DNA from: Anaerococcus provencensis
GTDB lineage: Bacteria; Bacillota; Clostridia; Tissierellales; Peptoniphilaceae
DNA: 64,000 bases
Assembly: GCF_000312365.2 (NCBI RefSeq)
Contig: NZ_HG003685.1
Coordinates: 40,502 to 104,501 of the forward strand
Direction: 5' to 3'
Shown here: in pieces, positions 17,202 through 40,395 of the stretch
Position numbering within the stretch: position 1 is the stretch's first letter
Layout of the letters: each line of letters begins with the position of its first letter
Translations under genes and position numbers: made by a program
The notes under the pieces: generated by a model
Database searches by the model: none
What the model was told of the DNA's origin: nothing
The model's input: only the letters and a program-made list of their open reading frames with translations

Positions 17202-17710
17202 GGTATGACGGGCATGTCATCAATCTGTGGTGAAAGTCCACGAAGGGCGTAGTTGCCAGCGAACCTCATAGCAATTCCCAAGGCTTGTACCGTGAGGTAC
17301 AGGCGAGAAGAAGGGATAGCAAAATTGTAGCCTGACGAACAGAAACCTAATACTAAGGCTTGCACGGTGGACAAGCGAACCAAAAGTCGTGAAGTCCAAA
17401 AGGCAACCGTAAACCATGCAAGTAGATTAGGCAGGTAGACAAGGAAAGATTGATGGCTTATCCCGTGAGGTCTCACTAGCGAATAAGTAGTAGCAACGAA
17501 TAGTGAGAAGTCAGCAAAAGCCATAGTAGTATTGAAGCCTTTGTAATAGAGGTGGAGCGAAGGGCTGAATAATTCAAAGTCAAATGGACTTGCAAAAGTC
17601 TGTATCCATATCCGACGAGAAAATCGTACCAAAGACGTAACGGCGGAAAAATTTCACAGGAGCTAGGAGTAAGAGGATACAGAGCATAACAAAGAAAGGA
17701 GACAATCCAA

Positions 17711-18964
17711 ATGTCAGGACTGCTAGAACAAATACTCAGTAGAGAAAACATGTTTGCAGCACTAAACAAAGTGAAAGCAAACAAAGGAGCAGAAGGAATA
17801 GATGGAATATCCACCGAAGAAATAGACCAATATCTTAAGAACAACTGGGTAGAAATTAGAGACAAAATTCGAAGAAGAAAGTATAAACCAAAACCGGTCA
17901 GAAGAGTAGAAATACCAAAACCAAATGGAGGTGTACGCAATCTAGGAATACCAACAATAGTAGACAGAGTCATAGAACAAGCAATTGCACAAGTTCTAAC
18001 ACCAATAGCAGAACCACACTTTAGTGATAATAGTTACGGTTTTAGACCAAATCGCAGAGCACAACAAGCGATAGTGAAATTGCTTGAATACTTTAATGAC
18101 GGATACACCTATATTGTAGACATAGATCTAGAGAAATTCTTTGACAACGTCCCACAAGACAAACTCATGACCTTGGTTCATAACCTCATACATGACCCAG
18201 ACACAGAATCTCTAATTAGGAAATATCTTAATGCAGGAGTAATGATAAAAGGAAAATATGAAGAAACACCCAAGGGAACACCACAAGGAGGTAATCTATC
18301 GCCCCTTCTAAGTAACATAATGCTAAACGAATTAGACAAAGAATTAGAAGCAAGAGGGCTACACTTTGTGAGATATGCAGACGACTGCGTAATAACTGTA
18401 GGAAGTAATGCAGCAGCTAACAGAGTAATGGCATCAGTAACAAAGTGGATAGAAAAGAAACTAGGACTAAAAGTAAATGCAACAAAATCTAAAGTTACAA
18501 AACCAAGAAAGCTAAAATATTTAGGATATGGTTTTTGGAAAGACAAAGAAGAATGGAAAGCAAGACCACACAAAGAATCAATCCAAAGATTCCAAAGAAA
18601 GTTGAAACAGTTAACAAAGAGAAGCTGGTCGGTAGCAATGACTTATCGAATCAACAGACTGAATCAAGTAATTAGAGGGTGGATAAGCTATTTTAGACTA
18701 GGAGATATGAAGACGGTCCTTAGAAAGATAGATGAACGACTTAGAACAAGAATGAGAATAGTCATATGGAAGCAGTGGAAGACTAGTGAAAAACGCCTAT
18801 GGGGACTTCGAAAGTTAGGAGTTCCGATGTGGATGGCAAAACAGTCAGTAGGATTTGGAGACCACTATCAAGCGGTTGCCAAAACCACAGGACTACATCA
18901 TATAAACAAAGAAATCCTCGCAAAGCGAGGACTTCAAAGTTGTTTGGATTATTATTTGAATTAA
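17711..18964 (+). CDS. ltrA: Group II intron reverse transcriptase/maturase
   Basis: 417 residues. RT domains: 'NKGAEGIDG' (RT1), 'RRVEIPKPNGGVRNLGIPT' (RT2), 'SYGFRPNR' (RT3), 'VDIDLEKFFDNV' (RT4), 'TPQGGNLSPLLSNIMLNELD' pieces (RT4-5) and the catalytic YADD at 222-225. A maturase X domain ('GWISYFRLGDMK', 'WKQWKT') follows. There is no C-terminal HNH endonuclease, as in class C. It resembles the highly processive RT of the Eubacterium rectale IIC intron. GGAG lies before the ATG. The protein looks intact. The IS256 copy lies one base after its stop codon. Confidence 0.96.
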   Translation: MSGLLEQILSRENMFAALNKVKANKGAEGIDGISTEEIDQYLKNNWVEIRDKIRRRKYKPKPVRRVEIPKPNGGVRNLGIPTIVDRVIEQAIAQVLTPIAEPHFSDNSYGFRPNRRAQQAIVKLLEYFNDGYTYIVDIDLEKFFDNVPQDKLMTLVHNLIHDPDTESLIRKYLNAGVMIKGKYEETPKGTPQGGNLSPLLSNIMLNELDKELEARGLHFVRYADDCVITVGSNAAANRVMASVTKWIEKKLGLKVNATKSKVTKPRKLKYLGYGFWKDKEEWKARPHKESIQRFQRKLKQLTKRSWSVAMTYRINRLNQVIRGWISYFRLGDMKTVLRKIDERLRTRMRIVIWKQWKTSEKRLWGLRKLGVPMWMAKQSVGFGDHYQAVAKTTGLHHINKEILAKRGLQSCLDYYLN

Positions 18965-24518: not shown

Positions 24519-26270
24519 ATGGAATTTGATGATATAAAGAAGATGATTAATGGAATGCTCAATGACTTGAGCAAATTATCAAAAGGCGAAAATAATACTA
24601 TAAAAAGAACAATAGACTCATCAAATCTAAAAGGCGTGATTGATATAAGTCTAGATAAGGAAGAAAAAATCCCAAAAGAAAATTTCAATGACAAGCCCCT
24701 CATCAAAGATTATAAGTATTGGATATTAAAGCTTGACCGATATTACAAAAATCCTGCCATGAGAGTAAAGCAAATTAATATTGCATCCTTGAAGACCTAT
24801 GCTGACCTATGTGATAGTTTGGAATATCACTTAAACAAAAGTGGCACAAGCATTGCTAGAATGGTATCAAGGTTAAGGCGTGAGCAATTCTCCTATGATA
24901 TATACTATACAATCTATCTTATTGCAGAAAATACTGTTTTAAGTTTCTATAACCCCCTTTATAACAAATCAGCAGATAAATCATATCAAATTATAGAAAA
25001 TTCCATATCAAAAAAGGCTAGGTATTTGCTTGAAGCCAGAGCATTGGAGCTATCAAAGAATCTCAAGGCCCCTGATAAGAAAACTAGAGAATATTTTAAT
25101 CTTACTGCTAATAATAAAGTTTCAACTTGGTGGGATAAAGATGGGCTTCTAAGGGAAAAATATAAAATATCAAAAGATGAAGAAATAGCCATCAACCAAA
25201 TATCTAAGCGCAACAATGTTCTTTGGAAAAATCCTCTTGTTGTGGATATTCTCCTAGATATGTACTTATTTACTTTAAGGAGAATCTTTGACAATGATGA
25301 CATTGATAGCAAAAGTCTCATTAGAATTATGAAGCCTTACAAGCAATCAAAACTTGCCCTAGAAAGTATACTGATCATAAGTGAGAAAAACATGAGGGAA
25401 GTTTTTACTTTCTTTAACAAGAGCAATCAAGCTAAGGCAGAAGAAAACTTGGTGGAATTTGACGGTGGGCATCTCCTAGAATTTATAGAACAAATCCAAA
25501 AAGCCTATATAAAAACCATAGACCCTTTCCTTATCAACAAGATTTATGAAGATCATTTAAAAGAAAATTCTGGCAAAATAAAAGATTATATAAATTATAT
25601 GGAAAGGCTTGACTTAAGTGGAAAAATTTCTTTTGTGGAAGAAATATCTACAATGGATAATTTCCCCAGGATTCTAGATGGATTTTTAAAATCAGATAAT
25701 ACAGAAGATAAAATAATTGCCTTATATTATATATACAAACTTGATTATAATAAAAAATCACACGAAAAAATATTATTTGAAATCATAAAAGCAGATAACT
25801 TTGACGATTTTTTATCCTTGGTAAATTTAAGAGATATGGATTTAGCCACTTATGAAGATATAAAATCATTAAATAAGAATAAGTTAAAAAGAATCGAAGT
25901 TGATATAAATAGGATTGATAAGTCTAGGGAAAATCTTAGAAAAACTGTCAATAAGGTCAACGAATTTTTGGATGAAGATAATCCAGGAGAAGACTTACCA
26001 GAAGATCCAAAAGAAGAAATCCTAGATAATGGTGGGAAATACCATGTGATTTTAAATAAAATTTTAGAAAATGGATCTATGAGCAAAGATGAATTTGACA
26101 AATTTACCCTAGCAGATCAGCTAACTACAAACACATTTCTTGGAAAGATAAATGATGAACTTTTTGAATTTATAGGCGATCAAGCCTTACTGATAGAAGA
26201 TGATAATGTGATTATTGACCCTTTTTATGTTGAAATGGTAAAGGAGTACTTAGATGGCCACACGAATTAA
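24519..26270 (+). CDS. TerB_C-domain-like protein of a helicase operon
   Basis: 583 residues, soluble, largely helical. The C-terminal 70 residues ('ILENGSMSKDEFDKFTLAD', then 'GKINDELFEFIGD' and 'LIEDDNVIIDPFYVEMV') resemble the TerB_C domain seen at the end of TerB_N/TerB_C proteins. The N-terminal 480 residues were not confidently assigned. A hinge rich in Asp/Glu/Pro lies near 485-505. It is first in a three-gene operon, overlapping the ATPase gene by 17 nt. In other Firmicutes such proteins precede a DUF2791 ATPase and an SF2 helicase. A role as an adaptor that recruits the motor proteins is an inference. Confidence 0.6.
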   Translation: MEFDDIKKMINGMLNDLSKLSKGENNTIKRTIDSSNLKGVIDISLDKEEKIPKENFNDKPLIKDYKYWILKLDRYYKNPAMRVKQINIASLKTYADLCDSLEYHLNKSGTSIARMVSRLRREQFSYDIYYTIYLIAENTVLSFYNPLYNKSADKSYQIIENSISKKARYLLEARALELSKNLKAPDKKTREYFNLTANNKVSTWWDKDGLLREKYKISKDEEIAINQISKRNNVLWKNPLVVDILLDMYLFTLRRIFDNDDIDSKSLIRIMKPYKQSKLALESILIISEKNMREVFTFFNKSNQAKAEENLVEFDGGHLLEFIEQIQKAYIKTIDPFLINKIYEDHLKENSGKIKDYINYMERLDLSGKISFVEEISTMDNFPRILDGFLKSDNTEDKIIALYYIYKLDYNKKSHEKILFEIIKADNFDDFLSLVNLRDMDLATYEDIKSLNKNKLKRIEVDINRIDKSRENLRKTVNKVNEFLDEDNPGEDLPEDPKEEILDNGGKYHVILNKILENGSMSKDEFDKFTLADQLTTNTFLGKINDELFEFIGDQALLIEDDNVIIDPFYVEMVKEYLDGHTN

Positions 26271-27579
26271 TCCCAAAGAAGCAAATACAATTATTAAGTC
26301 TTTAGAAGGTGGAGTTGTCCCAAATATGGGAGTCCAACATCTGCTAGTAGGAAGAAATAGGGAAGTTGATGAAGTAATAAAAATCTTGGACACAATCGCT
26401 GATGGAGGTTCGGATATAAGATTTTGGGTTGGAGATTTTGGTTCTGGTAAGAGCTTTATGCTAGCAACTATAGAACAAATTTCATTAGGGAAGAACTTTG
26501 TAGTATCAAGTCTAGATCTGACTCCATCGAGGAGATTTTATGCCACAGATAGAAAGGCTGTTGCCCTATACACTGAAATTATAGACAATATAAAAACTAA
26601 AACTCAAAGAAGTGGAAATGTCCTTGAGATCATCATAGAGGAATGGATTAACCAATTGGCAAGTAAGATTGCAAGCGATAATTCAATAGATGTTATTGAA
26701 GTTTTAAAGGGAGCAAAAGAAGATCAAGTTATAAATGAGATATTAAATACCCTGGCAAGATTTAAGGCAGTTGGTCTATCCTATGAATTTGGTCAGGCTC
26801 TTACAAAATATTACCAAGGCTTTATAACTGATAATAGACTCCTTAAAACAAACGCCATCAGATGGCTTAGGGGGGATATTACTACAAAAACAGAAGCTAA
26901 AAAAATACTTGAAATAAATCAGATAATAACTGATGACAATTGGTTTGATGCCCTCAAAAATATGAGTGAGCTTTTTTTAGAAATTGGATTTGCGGGCTTT
27001 GTGGTTAATTTTGATGAAGCAGTGAATCTTTATAAACTCCCTTATGCTGTAACTCGTGAGAGAAACTACGAAAGAATTTTAAATATTTATAACGAGACTA
27101 AGTCCAATGAAGCTAGGGGCCTATTTGTAAACTTTGGTGCTACTAGAAAAACAGTCTTTGATGAAAATAGGGGCATGTCTTCTTATGGAGCATTGAAGGG
27201 CCGCCTTGGTAGCGAAGAGAGCATGGATAGTAAGCTTATAAATACCAATAGAACTGTCCTAGGTCTAAAACCACTTTCCAATGAAGAAATCTACACCCTC
27301 TTGGAAAATTTGGTAAATATTTATAATGTAAATTATAAAGAGGCCATTTCCATAAGCCAAGATCAGATTATAACTTATATGGAAGGCCAACTAAATAGGC
27401 CAGGAGCGGATGAATTCCTAACTCCTCGTGCAGTCATAAAAGATTTTATAGAAATTCTAGATTTAAAAAGACAAAATCCATATGTAGAAATCACCGAGAT
27501 ACTTTCCATGAAATTTAAAAATATAGTAGAAATAAGCAAAGATCCTGATGACAAAGACGATGAGATTGAGATAATATGA
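26254..27579 (+). CDS. BrxD-like (DUF2791) P-loop ATPase
   Basis: 441 residues. Walker A is 'GDFGSGKS' (60-67) and Walker B is 'GFVVNFDEA' (248-256). An arginine-finger-like segment 'NFGATRKTVFDENRG' follows. The N-terminal 'NTIIKSLEGGVVPNMGVQHLLVGR' and overall layout match the DUF2791/BREX ATP-binding protein BrxD family. It overlaps both neighbours (17 nt upstream, 4 nt ATGA downstream), so the three proteins are probably made in fixed ratio. No other BREX genes (pglZ, pglX, brxC) are in the window, so this is not a full BREX locus. Confidence 0.8.
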   Translation: MATRINPKEANTIIKSLEGGVVPNMGVQHLLVGRNREVDEVIKILDTIADGGSDIRFWVGDFGSGKSFMLATIEQISLGKNFVVSSLDLTPSRRFYATDRKAVALYTEIIDNIKTKTQRSGNVLEIIIEEWINQLASKIASDNSIDVIEVLKGAKEDQVINEILNTLARFKAVGLSYEFGQALTKYYQGFITDNRLLKTNAIRWLRGDITTKTEAKKILEINQIITDDNWFDALKNMSELFLEIGFAGFVVNFDEAVNLYKLPYAVTRERNYERILNIYNETKSNEARGLFVNFGATRKTVFDENRGMSSYGALKGRLGSEESMDSKLINTNRTVLGLKPLSNEEIYTLLENLVNIYNVNYKEAISISQDQIITYMEGQLNRPGADEFLTPRAVIKDFIEILDLKRQNPYVEITEILSMKFKNIVEISKDPDDKDDEIEII

Positions 27580-29678
27580 CAGATGCTTACTCATTACTAA
27601 ATAGAGACTTGAGATTTTATATCCACGAAAAAGGCTGGCCAAAACTTACAAGGATACAAAATGCAGCTATTAAAACTTATTTTGCCAATGACAACAACCT
27701 AATCTTGTCCGCTGCAACAGCCCAAGGTAAAACTGAAGCTGCCTTTTTGCCAGCAATAAGTTCGATTGATGATTTTGATCACGGCCTAAAGATATTATAT
27801 ATTTCGCCACTCATAGCTCTAATTAATGACCAATTTAAGCGAATTAATGATATGTGCTTAGATATGGATATAGCTATAACTGCTTGGCACGGTGAAGCTA
27901 GCAAGAGTAAAAAAGATGCCTTAATTGAAAACCCCAGAGGTATTGTACTAATCACTCCAGAATCTATAGAAGCACTCCTTTCTGGAAAAGCAGATCTGGC
28001 AAAAAATCTACTCAAAGATGTTGAAGTCATCATAGTAGATGAAATTCATAGCTTTTTATCAGGCAATAGAGGACTTCAATTAAAGTCCTTGCTTAGCCGC
28101 ATCTTACGTTATACCTATGAAAGCCCAAGGATGATTGGACTTTCTGCAACAATTGGTGAAGATAATTATTCCTTAGCCAAAAACTTTTTTGCAAATGGAA
28201 GAGATACAAATATCATAGTCGATAAATCTAGAAATGATTTAGAAGTGACAATTGATTACTTTCCATCAGAAACTATTTCTTCAGATGCGATTAAAAAGAT
28301 AAGTGCCTATGCTGCCGATGGAGCAATGTTAGTTTTTCCAAATTCTAGGGATAAGGTTGAAACTTTTGCTGTTAAACTTACTGAAGAATTTAAGGCGACT
28401 GGCAAAGATGTTAGAGTTTTTGCCCACCATTCATCTGTCAGCAAAAATAGGCGTAAAGAGATTGAAGATTTTGCCAAGGAAGCCAGGATGGAGAAATTTG
28501 TAATATGTGCAACATCAACCCTAGAGCTTGGTATAGATATTGGTGCTGTAACAAGTGTTTGCCAATATGGACCAAGTCATTCCGTCCTATCCCTAGCCCA
28601 AAGGCTTGGCAGAAGCGGTAGAAAGACAAAAACTTCTATCCTCCACCAAATATCTGCAAATCCCTGGGACTTGCTAGAAGCCTTGGCCACAATAAGTCTG
28701 TATGAAGATGGAATATTGGACAAAACGGAAGAGACTCACAAAGCCTATGATGTTTTTGCCCACCAAGTACTTTCTACACTTCTAGAAAACTTTGGCCTAA
28801 GTCTTGAAGAATATAAGTACCTCAATAAAACACTTTCGACATTTTCTGATATAAGTGATGAAGAATTTGCCAAAATTAGCGAGCATTTGGCAAAAGAAGG
28901 ATATATAGAAATCTTGGAAAATGAAGTAATAGCAGGAAGTGCCATAGAAAAGCTTATGAGTCGTGGTAATTTCTACAATCAATTTATTACAGGCGGTACA
29001 TACACTGTTTATAATGATAAAGCAAAAATAGGCGAAGTAGAAATTAGACCTGAAATCCAAGTCGATACAAATATTTATCTGGCTGGATCAATCTGGAGAA
29101 TTGAGCAAATTCTTAGTAAAAATAAAAAAATAATAGTCCAAAGAGCAGGAGCTGGCAAGGCTCCAAAATTTACCAGTATAGGGGATATGGATATCTCAGA
29201 TATCATAAGAGATCGTATGAAAGAAATCCTAAAATATCCCGAAAAATATAGTTTTGATGAACCGATAAACGAAATAGTTGGTGAACTTAGAGAAGAATAC
29301 ACAGATGATGACTACCTATTTGTAGCAGACAAAGATACGATATCTCTAAGGACTTTCAAAAACTCTAAAATCAACAGAAGCCTTGCCCTAATGTTAAATA
29401 TAGCATCAAATAGCAAGGATTACTCAAACAACGAAACAGACTCCACAGTCATAGGACCAGAAATAATCAGATACTTCGATCAAATAAGGCTAAATCCAAT
29501 TGGAGAAGAGCAGATAACTAAATTCTTAGAAAAATACCAAACTTACATGGAATCTTTCCTAGGAGCAAATAAATACATGGTCCTAGTTCCTATAGATTTG
29601 AAAATTGATTATATTATAAAAAATAGCTTAGACATGAAGGGGACTTATGAATATCTTGGCATAAAAGCTGAATTTTAG
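27576..29678 (+). CDS. DEAD/DEAH-box (Lhr-like) SF2 helicase
   Basis: 700 residues. Motif I is 'AATAQGKTEA' (46-55), motif Ia is 'YISPLIALINDQ', motif II is DEIH (155-158), motif III is 'SAT' (190-192) and motif VI is 'LAQRLGRSGRKTK'. 'ATSTLELGIDIGAV' is typical of Lhr-like enzymes. The C-terminal 300 residues lack a recognised nuclease. It is related to the BREX helicase BrxHI and is encoded directly after the BrxD-like ATPase. It should move on or remodel nucleic acid; a role in defence or repair is inferred from the pairing. Confidence 0.85.
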   Translation: MTDAYSLLNRDLRFYIHEKGWPKLTRIQNAAIKTYFANDNNLILSAATAQGKTEAAFLPAISSIDDFDHGLKILYISPLIALINDQFKRINDMCLDMDIAITAWHGEASKSKKDALIENPRGIVLITPESIEALLSGKADLAKNLLKDVEVIIVDEIHSFLSGNRGLQLKSLLSRILRYTYESPRMIGLSATIGEDNYSLAKNFFANGRDTNIIVDKSRNDLEVTIDYFPSETISSDAIKKISAYAADGAMLVFPNSRDKVETFAVKLTEEFKATGKDVRVFAHHSSVSKNRRKEIEDFAKEARMEKFVICATSTLELGIDIGAVTSVCQYGPSHSVLSLAQRLGRSGRKTKTSILHQISANPWDLLEALATISLYEDGILDKTEETHKAYDVFAHQVLSTLLENFGLSLEEYKYLNKTLSTFSDISDEEFAKISEHLAKEGYIEILENEVIAGSAIEKLMSRGNFYNQFITGGTYTVYNDKAKIGEVEIRPEIQVDTNIYLAGSIWRIEQILSKNKKIIVQRAGAGKAPKFTSIGDMDISDIIRDRMKEILKYPEKYSFDEPINEIVGELREEYTDDDYLFVADKDTISLRTFKNSKINRSLALMLNIASNSKDYSNNETDSTVIGPEIIRYFDQIRLNPIGEEQITKFLEKYQTYMESFLGANKYMVLVPIDLKIDYIIKNSLDMKGTYEYLGIKAEF

Positions 29679-37548: not shown

Positions 37549-38565
37549 ATGAAAAAAATTATTTATATTTTAATTTGTTTAATACTATCTTCATGTACCA
37601 GTAAATCTAAGGAGGGTGGGATTCCTCCTATTGATACATTGAGCGAAGATAGGATGATTGATGAAAGCAAGGTATCTTTGGATGATAAAAAGCCCAAAAG
37701 TCCTATTCTTAAAGAACCACCATTTAAGGCAAAGTCATTAGATTATGAAATAATAAAGCCGGGTTTTTTGCTGGAAGATAGGTTTAGGGACCTAAGAACT
37801 CAGGACAAGTACGCCGTAATGATGGTTGAATATTATGATGATGTAAATCAGACTTTTCATGTAAGTAGAATCCTAACAGAGGCTTTGAAGGATCCAAATG
37901 TAAAGATTGAAAATGATTTTGATGACAAGATGGACTTTGCTACAGACCTATTTTTGCTAAGCCCATTTTATTCAAAGGGTAAAATTGAACCCTATATTTA
38001 CTATAATTATTGGTTTGATGAAAGGACTTTCTCTTTAAAACCTAGATATGTCATTGAGGAGAACACCAAAACCTATCTAAATCCAGATGAAGAAAAGGCA
38101 GTAGAAAGTCAAATCAAGGTTCTAGTCGACTATGCAAACGAAAATTACGACAATGACTATGATAAGGCATATTATTTTGCGCTCTGGTTAGCCGAAAACA
38201 ACGACTACCAATACCACGGAGATAAGGATAATATCATAGAAAACAATATGTACGGAGCTTTGGTGAAGGGATTAAGCCAATGTTCTGGTTTTGCCCAAAG
38301 CTTTACAAGACTCTGCCAAGAGGTTGGAATTCCTTGCTATTCAGTTACAGGAAATACAGAAGCTCCTAATAGACCTGATGACTACTCTGGAGAACACCAG
38401 TGGAATGTAATAATGCTTGATGATACATGGTCCTATGTCGATATAACAGGCATGGTTGCCAATGGCAGCGATTACTATTACTATTATTTTGATAGGTCAA
38501 AGTATGAATTTGTTGACTATTATGTAAGCAAATTCTACAAGGATATTGAGGAGTATATAAGATGA
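37549..38565 (+). CDS. Transglutaminase-like lipoprotein
   Basis: 338 residues. The signal peptide has lipobox LSSC (Cys16). The C-terminal third is a transglutaminase-like domain: Cys245 in 'GLSQCSGFAQSF', His283 in 'SGEHQWNVI' and Asp298 in 'SYVDIT', a complete papain-type triad in the right order. The 'YGALVKGLSQCSGFA' pattern is standard for bacterial members, which may act as proteases, cross-linkers or amidases. The middle region (30-200) is unassigned. It is the first gene of a four-gene operon; a 4-nt overlap joins it to the next. Confidence 0.85.
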   Translation: MKKIIYILICLILSSCTSKSKEGGIPPIDTLSEDRMIDESKVSLDDKKPKSPILKEPPFKAKSLDYEIIKPGFLLEDRFRDLRTQDKYAVMMVEYYDDVNQTFHVSRILTEALKDPNVKIENDFDDKMDFATDLFLLSPFYSKGKIEPYIYYNYWFDERTFSLKPRYVIEENTKTYLNPDEEKAVESQIKVLVDYANENYDNDYDKAYYFALWLAENNDYQYHGDKDNIIENNMYGALVKGLSQCSGFAQSFTRLCQEVGIPCYSVTGNTEAPNRPDDYSGEHQWNVIMLDDTWSYVDITGMVANGSDYYYYYFDRSKYEFVDYYVSKFYKDIEEYIR

Positions 38566-38984
38566 TTGTAAACCCATATCAAGAGCTGATTTCTTTGCAT
38601 GATATGAGAATAGAAAATATAAAAATAGAGGATAATACGGCCTATATAAAACTTAACAATGCGTATTTGTTAGGCCAAACGGATACTTATATGTTGGATG
38701 AGCCTCTAATCATAATCAATGACCTTATCAATATCGAAGCTAACAGCGATTACCCAATAAGAATAAGAGTTTATGGTGATAAAAACATTTTTGATATTAA
38801 TATTTCTGACTTCAATGAATATGCCTTTGATATCCTTGAAGAAGCCTATGGCTTTGGACTTCTTCACTTTTTTGGCATAGCTACAAAATATCAAGATAAT
38901 AAAGCATATGATTGTTTTTTAGATATACACTTTACGGGAGACCTAGAGATAAAGTGGGATAACAAAGTTTTATTAGAGGTATAG
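38562..38984 (+). CDS. Hypothetical protein in the macrodomain operon
   Basis: 140 residues, soluble, acidic, rich in Ile, Asn and Asp; it appears mostly beta strand ('MRIENIKIEDNTAYIKLNNAYLL' in pieces). No family was recognised. Its start overlaps the transglutaminase gene by 4 nt (ATGA) and its stop directly touches the macrodomain gene ATG. It may belong to either functional unit of this operon. Confidence 0.6.
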   Translation: MIVNPYQELISLHDMRIENIKIEDNTAYIKLNNAYLLGQTDTYMLDEPLIIINDLINIEANSDYPIRIRVYGDKNIFDINISDFNEYAFDILEEAYGFGLLHFFGIATKYQDNKAYDCFLDIHFTGDLEIKWDNKVLLEV

Positions 38985-39488
38985 ATGAGTTTTAAGATAG
39001 TTAATGAAGATATAACAAGGATGGATGTAGAGGCTATAGTAAACGCGGCAAATACTGGACTAAAAATGGGAGCTGGAGTTTGTAGAGCCATCTTTTTAGC
39101 TGCAGGAGCTGATAAGCTTACTAAAGCTTGTGATGTGCTAGCGCCAATAAAAACAGGAGAAGCTGTTATCACAGATGGATTTGATTTAAAAGCAAAGTAT
39201 ATAATCCACACGGCTGGCCCAGTTTATAATCCAAATAATGACGAAGAATCTATAAGACTATTGGAAAAATCTTACAAAAATTCCTTAATACTTGCTAGGG
39301 AAAATGATGTATCATCGCTTGCCTTTCCCTTGATTTCTGCAGGAATTTATGGCTTTCCCAAAATCAAAGCTTTTGAAATAGCAAAAGAGACAATTGAAAA
39401 TTTTCTAAAAGAAAATGATATGGACGTTTACCTTACTATAGTTGATAAGGAAATAATAGATAGGATAAATAATGGAACTTACAGATAA
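38985..39488 (+). CDS. Macrodomain protein (ADP-ribose binding/hydrolysing)
   Basis: 167 residues, one macrodomain. 'IVNAANTGLKMGAGVCRAIFLAAG' (in pieces, about 19-42) is the ribose/diphosphate loop in the 'GVCxAIF' form. 'YIIHTAGPVY' and 'AFPLISAGIYGFP' form the second binding loop. These are all key segments of ADP-ribose hydrolases. Such proteins remove ADP-ribose or O-acetyl-ADP-ribose and sometimes act as antitoxins. It overlaps the HEPN-nuclease-like gene by 17 nt, so the two are made together. Confidence 0.9.
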   Translation: MSFKIVNEDITRMDVEAIVNAANTGLKMGAGVCRAIFLAAGADKLTKACDVLAPIKTGEAVITDGFDLKAKYIIHTAGPVYNPNNDEESIRLLEKSYKNSLILARENDVSSLAFPLISAGIYGFPKIKAFEIAKETIENFLKENDMDVYLTIVDKEIIDRINNGTYR

Positions 39489-40395
39489 ATTTGAATTTGA
39501 TTCTTGCAAGAAGAAAACCCCATATACTATAGACCATGGAGAAATCCCTATTGAAATAAGCCCGGATTTAACAGAAGCAATATACTATTTGCTTTGGTAT
39601 GTGCCAAATATTAAGTCAGAGCAATCAAAAAAGAACGAACTTTTATTAAATCCCCAATACGACAATTATATTTTCTTAGAGATAATGAAGGCTATGAATT
39701 TAGAAGATGAAGATGTTTTATTTACAGAAACAATTGAAGAAAAATTCATAAAGCCCTTTCTAAAGGAAGTATGCCCCAAAGAATATAAAATTATTATGAC
39801 CATATCTTCTGGTGAGACCAAGACTATGGCCTTGTTAAGACATATAAGAAATGCTATTGCTCATGGGAATTTCAATATTATTGACGATACTTTGCTAGGC
39901 TTTGACATACAAAGAAATGACAAGGAGACAGAGTATCGTGGATTCTTTAAGATTAATCCAACTGACCTACTAAGGGCACTAAAGAAAATTCAATTTGACT
40001 ATAACTCTCAAAAACTTATAAAAACAGCCTTTAAGAATTGTGGCTACCATATAGAAGACTATCAAGATAAATACCAAAGAAGCCACGATTTTGAATTGTT
40101 TGCCAGGAAAAATAAAAAGAAATATGCCATAGATATCAAAAATTATGAATACGAAAAAACTGTGGATAAGGAATTTATTGATGATTTGGTCAAGCAATAC
40201 GAAGGACTCATAGAAGGAATAACTCCTGTTTTAATAATCCATTCATCTTACCTTGATGATAAGAGCAAGGATGAGCTTTTAAAGCATGATGTTATCATCC
40301 TAGATGTCAAAAATATAAAGAAAATGATTAAAGGTAGAGATATGGTAAGCGAGATTGAAAGAGCCCAAGATATCAATGCTAATATCAGCCAATAA
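39472..40395 (+). CDS. HEPN-like domain fused to a PD-(D/E)XK-like nuclease domain
   Basis: 307 residues. The N-terminal half is helical and contains 'LLRHIRNAIAHGNF': Arg126-x4-His131 (RNAIAH) is the HEPN RNase motif. The C-terminal part has a restriction-nuclease-like core: Asp206 in 'SHDFELFA', then 'YAIDIKNY' with Asp221 and Lys223, and a downstream Gln242 in 'LVKQYEGL', as in Mrr-like enzymes. No membrane segment. The macrodomain gene overlaps its 5' end by 17 nt. This pairing of a possible RNase/DNase with an ADP-ribose hydrolase suggests a toxin/antitoxin or abortive-infection unit; the function is not shown. Both domain calls are by eye. Confidence 0.62.
   Translation: MELTDKFEFDSCKKKTPYTIDHGEIPIEISPDLTEAIYYLLWYVPNIKSEQSKKNELLLNPQYDNYIFLEIMKAMNLEDEDVLFTETIEEKFIKPFLKEVCPKEYKIIMTISSGETKTMALLRHIRNAIAHGNFNIIDDTLLGFDIQRNDKETEYRGFFKINPTDLLRALKKIQFDYNSQKLIKTAFKNCGYHIEDYQDKYQRSHDFELFARKNKKKYAIDIKNYEYEKTVDKEFIDDLVKQYEGLIEGITPVLIIHSSYLDDKSKDELLKHDVIILDVKNIKKMIKGRDMVSEIERAQDINANISQ

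Follow-up and report, generated by a model that had tools for sequence, protein, structure and literature searches.

A HEPN/Mrr-like fusion protein found throughout Anaerococcus: a candidate stand-alone immune effector with an optional macrodomain neighbour

Does an overlap between two genes indicate that their products work as a pair? The question is raised by a locus in the window, the whole stretch of 64,000 nucleotides of Anaerococcus provencensis DNA that was analysed, where a macrodomain gene overlaps by 17 nt a gene encoding a protein of 307 residues. The original prediction assigned to the second protein a HEPN-type RNase motif joined to a restriction-like nuclease core, and proposed a toxin-antitoxin or abortive-infection pair. 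Several points should be considered. Is the 307-residue protein such a fusion? Which of its halves is likely to be active? Is the macrodomain required? Does the protein serve in defence or in housekeeping? Open reading frame calls confirm both genes, their coordinates and the overlap as originally given. The features are as follows.

38985-39488 (+): gene for a MacroD-type macrodomain protein, 167 residues; open reading frame matching PF01661 (Macro) with E = 2.8e-36
39472-40395 (+): HEPN-REase fusion gene, 307 residues; open reading frame with dN/dS of 0.02-0.17 in both domains
39472-40002 (+): N-terminal HEPN-like domain of the pEK499_p136 type, residues 1-177; from PF18736 and hhalign
39847-39864 (+): codons of the HEPN R-x4-H motif, R126-N-A-I-A-H131; R126, N127 and H131 invariant in 66 of 66 homologues
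40003-40392 (+): C-terminal Mrr-like PD-(D/E)XK (REase-fold) domain, residues 178-307; from Mrr_cat and Foldseek
40093-40095 (+): codon of E208, the first acidic residue of the REase site; Asp or Glu in 66 of 66 homologues
40132-40140 (+): codons of the (D/E)-x-K half-motif, D221-I222-K223; position 221 acidic in 65 of 66 homologues

HEPN domains are, by family precedent, metal-independent RNases. In the window protein residues 106-173 match the HEPN pEK499_p136 profile, PF18736, with an E value of 1.5e-4 and a score of 22 bits, which lies under the curated Pfam cut-off of 26.6. The profile is also matched by 29 of 35 homologues (E ≤ 0.1, best value 3.2e-5), and a profile of the fusion protein independently recovers true PF18736 members in other families. 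In a profile-profile comparison (hhalign), a segment of 48 columns that spans the motif aligns to genuine PF18736 members with a probability of 97.6%. Alignment of 66 homologues reveals that R126, N127 and H131 never vary, so the R126-x4-H131 motif noted at the outset is real and not a product of chance. An AlphaFold2 model of the N-terminal half alone has a mean pLDDT of 92.4, and the full protein is modelled as two domains with a pLDDT of 84.6. A Foldseek search of the PDB with the N-terminal half gave a best match of E = 0.6, with no HEPN structure among the matches listed, a search of viral models gave nothing significant and a full-profile sequence search of solved structures produced no credible match. 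Membership of the HEPN superfamily, pEK499_p136 type, is therefore supported by sequence and not by fold.

The C-terminal half is assigned from both profile and structure. PF04471 (Mrr_cat) is matched by 11 of 35 homologues, with a best E value of 8.1e-7, and a Bacillus relative matches the profile for the Mrr-like nuclease part of ZorD (E 3.9e-7). The top Foldseek matches are PD-(D/E)XK nucleases, namely Cdn1 (E = 9.4e-4), VC1899, FokI, AF1548, HindIII, Can2 and Card1. Together these results support a PD-(D/E)XK, Mrr-like REase fold. The two-domain reading of the original prediction holds with respect to both profiles, the hhalign result and the structural matches of the C-terminal domain; the N-terminal fold is without a counterpart among solved structures.

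The REase-fold active site is not the one first proposed. The prediction had built it from D206, D221-x-K223 and Q242, of which D221 is upheld and K223 in part. D206 and Q242, shared by only seven and ten of the 66 homologues respectively, are poorly conserved and we reject them as catalytic residues, the acidic site being formed by E208 and D221. At position 223 lysine occurs in 44 homologues, arginine in 18, leucine in two, and isoleucine and histidine in one each. There are at least eight changes at this position on the tree, all in the clade comprising Anaerococcus and its nearest relatives. The dN/dS values quoted above, which denote strong purifying selection, include pairs that carry R223, indicating that the domain is needed even where the catalytic lysine has gone; the HEPN site is required in all cases.

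Might the PD-(D/E)XK domain be the working enzyme, a DNase, with the HEPN domain serving only in dimerisation or regulation? Mrr-like nucleases belong to the type IV restriction enzymes, and the window protein retains the full catalytic set of E208, D221 and K223, such that its own nuclease site may be active. Against this, the lysine has been replaced in 22 of the 66 homologues without loss of constraint and the HEPN residues R126 and H131 are never altered; we regard the DNase reading as highly improbable. An invariant HEPN site beside an REase lysine that is replaced under constraint points to the HEPN domain as the effector and the REase fold as a sensor or binding module. Second, divergent HEPN-REase copies are also observed at L034-L036 (genomes G002, G020 and G016) and L110 (G513). 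Those from Anaerococcus are approximately 33% identical, and the copies that were aligned keep D-x12-E-x-K intact.

The fusion gene is present in all 31 Anaerococcus genomes, in 67 of 130 Peptoniphilaceae genomes and in 14 of 39 genera, genus counts that take in one weak partial match, and it is very rare outside the family. Homologues occupy the same syntenic locus in named Anaerococcus species. Distances between the Anaerococcus fusion proteins correlate (r = 0.90-0.96) with the corresponding distances for three chromosomal genes that flank the locus, from which we conclude that inheritance within the genus is vertical. A tblastn search with the fusion protein against 50,697 phage and 72,556 plasmid records returned no match, and in IMG/VR a single HEPN-only relative was found, within a type I restriction-modification (R-M) locus. 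When 249 genomes of the phylum were searched with PF18736 only two matches exceeded the cut-off, so this HEPN family is rare in the phylum.

Is the macrodomain a partner? The neighbouring protein is MacroD/YmdB-like, with OiMacroD and MACROD2 as the nearest solved structures, and NCBIfam agrees with a MacroD-like assignment. In a toxin-antitoxin or ADP-ribose-controlled arrangement the macrodomain would neutralise the HEPN-REase protein or regulate it, for instance by stripping off an ADP-ribose that either inhibits or activates it. The genes overlap in the window species, and a full-length macrodomain gene, where it occurs in Anaerococcus (16 of 31 genomes), is in every case 0.4-11 kb from the fusion gene. 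One Peptoniphilus group carries it some 3-4 kb away in most genomes, on the opposite strand, and both Macro and ART genes were listed in 2013 as neighbours of the pEK499_p136-type HEPN family (Anantharaman et al. 2013, PMC3710099). However, in the remaining 15 Anaerococcus genomes the fusion gene is kept with no full-length macrodomain gene anywhere in the genome (one has a short partial match), and in other genera the two genes lie at least 100 kb apart, or on different contigs of draft assemblies. Absence from half of the species rules out an obligate antitoxin. Co-occurrence is not significant family-wide (p = 0.21), though p = 0.016 outside Anaerococcus.

The macrodomain sequences also argue against a partnership. 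In the clade of the window species dN/dS is approximately 0.2 for the macrodomain as opposed to 0.03-0.06 for the fusion gene, and the position of the MacroD catalytic aspartate is occupied by cysteine in all of these homologues. In the ADP-ribose loop the otherwise invariant GGG is replaced by GAG in the window species and by GCG in its sister L002 (L003 has GGG), changes which suggest relaxed constraint on the macrodomain in this species group. The linkage is real but may represent shared, inherited synteny, a suggestion made because genes for PBP1A-like proteins occur near the locus in both Anaerococcus and Peptoniphilus. The macrodomain gene is an optional neighbour of the fusion gene, with no obligate partnership, and we consider a controlled pair very unlikely. 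The pair is not conserved in related genomes, which was the outcome named in advance as refuting the toxin-antitoxin proposal; by that standard the pairing is refuted, although its non-conservation does not refute the idea of a defence function. DarT-DarG offers a parallel, in that a macrodomain gene adjoins the gene for a putative toxin. As had been anticipated, the window partner is no ADP-ribosyltransferase, there being no ART profile match for the fusion protein, the macrodomain is of the MacroD/YmdB and not the DarG (TARG1-like) type, with DarG profiles giving E values of only 0.012 and 0.12, and the pair is not conserved. DarTG identity is ruled out. The case illustrates how little an overlap between genes says, by itself, for a toxin-antitoxin relationship.

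Relatives of the fusion protein are informative on context. In Bacillus badius the gene lies between those for an OLD/GajA/AriA-like ATPase and an AIPR/AbiU protein, the Peptoniphilus-group paralogue (L110) adjoins GmrSD and another relative is within a conjugative element. Among HEPN-only relatives, one is placed between HsdS and HsdR and one adjoins HsdS. Another, from an uncultured Ruminococcus (L093, 3084-9716), is part of a BREX-like locus, with an Eco57I/PglX-type methylase upstream and, two genes downstream of the HEPN gene, a probable PglZ, recognised by reading the sequence. At a further locus (L116, genome G658) a separate REase-like gene (569-970) precedes a PF18736 HEPN gene (1387-1938) by approximately 0.4 kb on the same strand, and these two represent an unfused counterpart of the window protein. 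The fusion protein itself shows no significant match to the named defence systems of NCBIfam/PADLOC.

A known defence system is located about 10 kb upstream of the fusion gene in the window.

24519-29678 (+): Shango system, all three genes matched: SngA (E 3.3e-12), SngB (E 4.5e-143) and SngC (E 5e-169)

Shango has been shown by experiment to be an anti-phage system (PMC10250203). SngB is present in 19 of 31 Anaerococcus genomes and in all 19 is 2-13 kb upstream of the fusion gene. In four species SngC is the gene immediately before it, at distances of 3 (A. tetradius), 49, 49 and 167 nt. Could the HEPN-REase protein then be an effector of, or an addition to, Shango? Such proximity is consistent with an accessory role, yet the fusion gene exists without Shango in 12 Anaerococcus genomes and in all the other genera that carry it, Shango is present without the fusion gene in a further seven genomes of the family (genera g7 and g33), and the linkage may again be shared synteny. 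The three Shango genes contain neither HEPN nor REase domains. A Shango accessory is, in our assessment, unlikely.

We favour, with about as much doubt as conviction, a stand-alone effector: the 307-residue protein would be an immune-type HEPN RNase attached to an Mrr-like domain that contacts nucleic acid, derived from defence and now a core gene, probably still with an immune function. The N-terminal HEPN domain, a putative RNase by family precedent, would be the active part. The Mrr-like domain, probably a former nuclease and lacking the full catalytic set in many relatives, would contact nucleic acid and sense it or position the enzyme. Recognition of foreign or abnormal nucleic acid may provide the trigger for RNA cleavage by the HEPN domain, which would bring growth or phage production to a halt; a macrodomain is not required. 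The gene was probably recruited from the HEPN/REase stock of defence islands; in Anaerococcus and several related genera it now belongs to the core genome and passes down vertically. In support of the effector reading are the HEPN motif, unchanged in 66 of 66 homologues, the repeated replacement of K223, the low dN/dS of both domains, the vertical core distribution with no copies in phages or plasmids, the occurrence of several outlying relatives in mobile or defence-associated settings, the unfused HEPN and REase gene pair, and the linkage to Shango. Our more specific proposal, that this is a single-protein immune effector of the genus core, its invariant HEPN RNase governed by an REase-fold domain that is undergoing repeated, independent conversion from DNase to catalytically dead sensor of nucleic acid, and that in some species it may also be coupled to Shango, is offered tentatively.

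Defence genes tend to be mobile and patchily distributed. It is uncommon for a gene engaged in an arms race to be present everywhere and under strong purifying selection, and these properties fit housekeeping equally well; the HEPN-like domain has no solved-structure match, K223 is intact in the window protein itself, and in Peptoniphilus, Aedoeadaptatus and Urinicoccus the fusion gene is found among ordinary genes (tadA, rplM-rpsI, tuf-like and metabolic). All of this tells against the effector reading. The main competing explanation is that a former defence protein has been fully domesticated as an RNase for RNA processing or quality control in Peptoniphilaceae, the REase fold serving as an RNA- or DNA-binding module. 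Presence in every Anaerococcus genome, vertical inheritance, very low dN/dS and a monocistronic position amid housekeeping genes in several genera are what such a role would predict. It is less readily reconciled with the lack of the gene in most other Peptoniphilaceae genera, with broken copies (shortened in A. vaginimassiliensis, split in P. grossensis) and with relatives that reside in defence contexts. We judge domestication possible though somewhat doubtful. The Shango, macrodomain-pair and DNase readings are all less likely than either the effector or the housekeeping reading.

Comparison with known systems places the effector candidate among HEPN proteins already associated with defence. 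It shares with the pEK499_p136-type family the PF18736 profile, the RN-x3-H motif and relatives in R-M and Pgl/BREX-like contexts, R-M and Pgl neighbours having already been known for that family (PMC3710099). The 2013 table gives no REase fusion for it, whereas the window protein carries this HEPN domain and an Mrr-like one in a single chain and belongs to the genus core. Fusions of the DUF4145 and EC042_2821 types likewise tie a HEPN RNase to a restriction-type domain but involve other HEPN families and are reported as fused or embedded in R-M operons, unlike the stand-alone, genus-core window gene (PMC3710099). The C-terminal domain resembles Mrr-type restriction domains (PF04471, including the nuclease part of ZorD) in profile and PD-(D/E)XK structure, and differs from them in that the catalytic lysine is not conserved in the family and the domain is fused to HEPN. 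HepT/MntA (HEPN/MNT) is similar in that the gene for a HEPN protein of RNase type lies next to a nucleotide-related gene; the window locus has no MNT nucleotidyltransferase gene, and its neighbour is dispensable.

In the literature searched we found no account of a PF18736-type HEPN joined with an Mrr-like domain in one protein, carried throughout a genus and altered repeatedly at its nuclease site. HEPN-REase fusions are known in other HEPN families, so the novelty lies in the PF18736-type version and not in the principle. A genus-wide HEPN-REase protein would be one of few cases of bacterial immunity that is innate and passed on vertically, or else of a toxin that has taken up housekeeping. 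The repeated replacement of the REase lysine beside an unchanging HEPN site provides natural variants in which to follow the conversion of nuclease domains into sensors.

Two other features of the window are of note. Between the gene for a transglutaminase-like lipoprotein and the macrodomain gene is a gene for a protein of 140 residues (38562-38984, +) with no match in Pfam or NCBIfam. It is variably present; in the sister genome L002 a short remnant takes its place, and the flanks are still 97-100% identical. Further upstream, a group II intron RNA (RF02001, 121 bits) at 17286-17565 (+) is followed by a reverse-transcriptase open reading frame at 17711-18964 (+).
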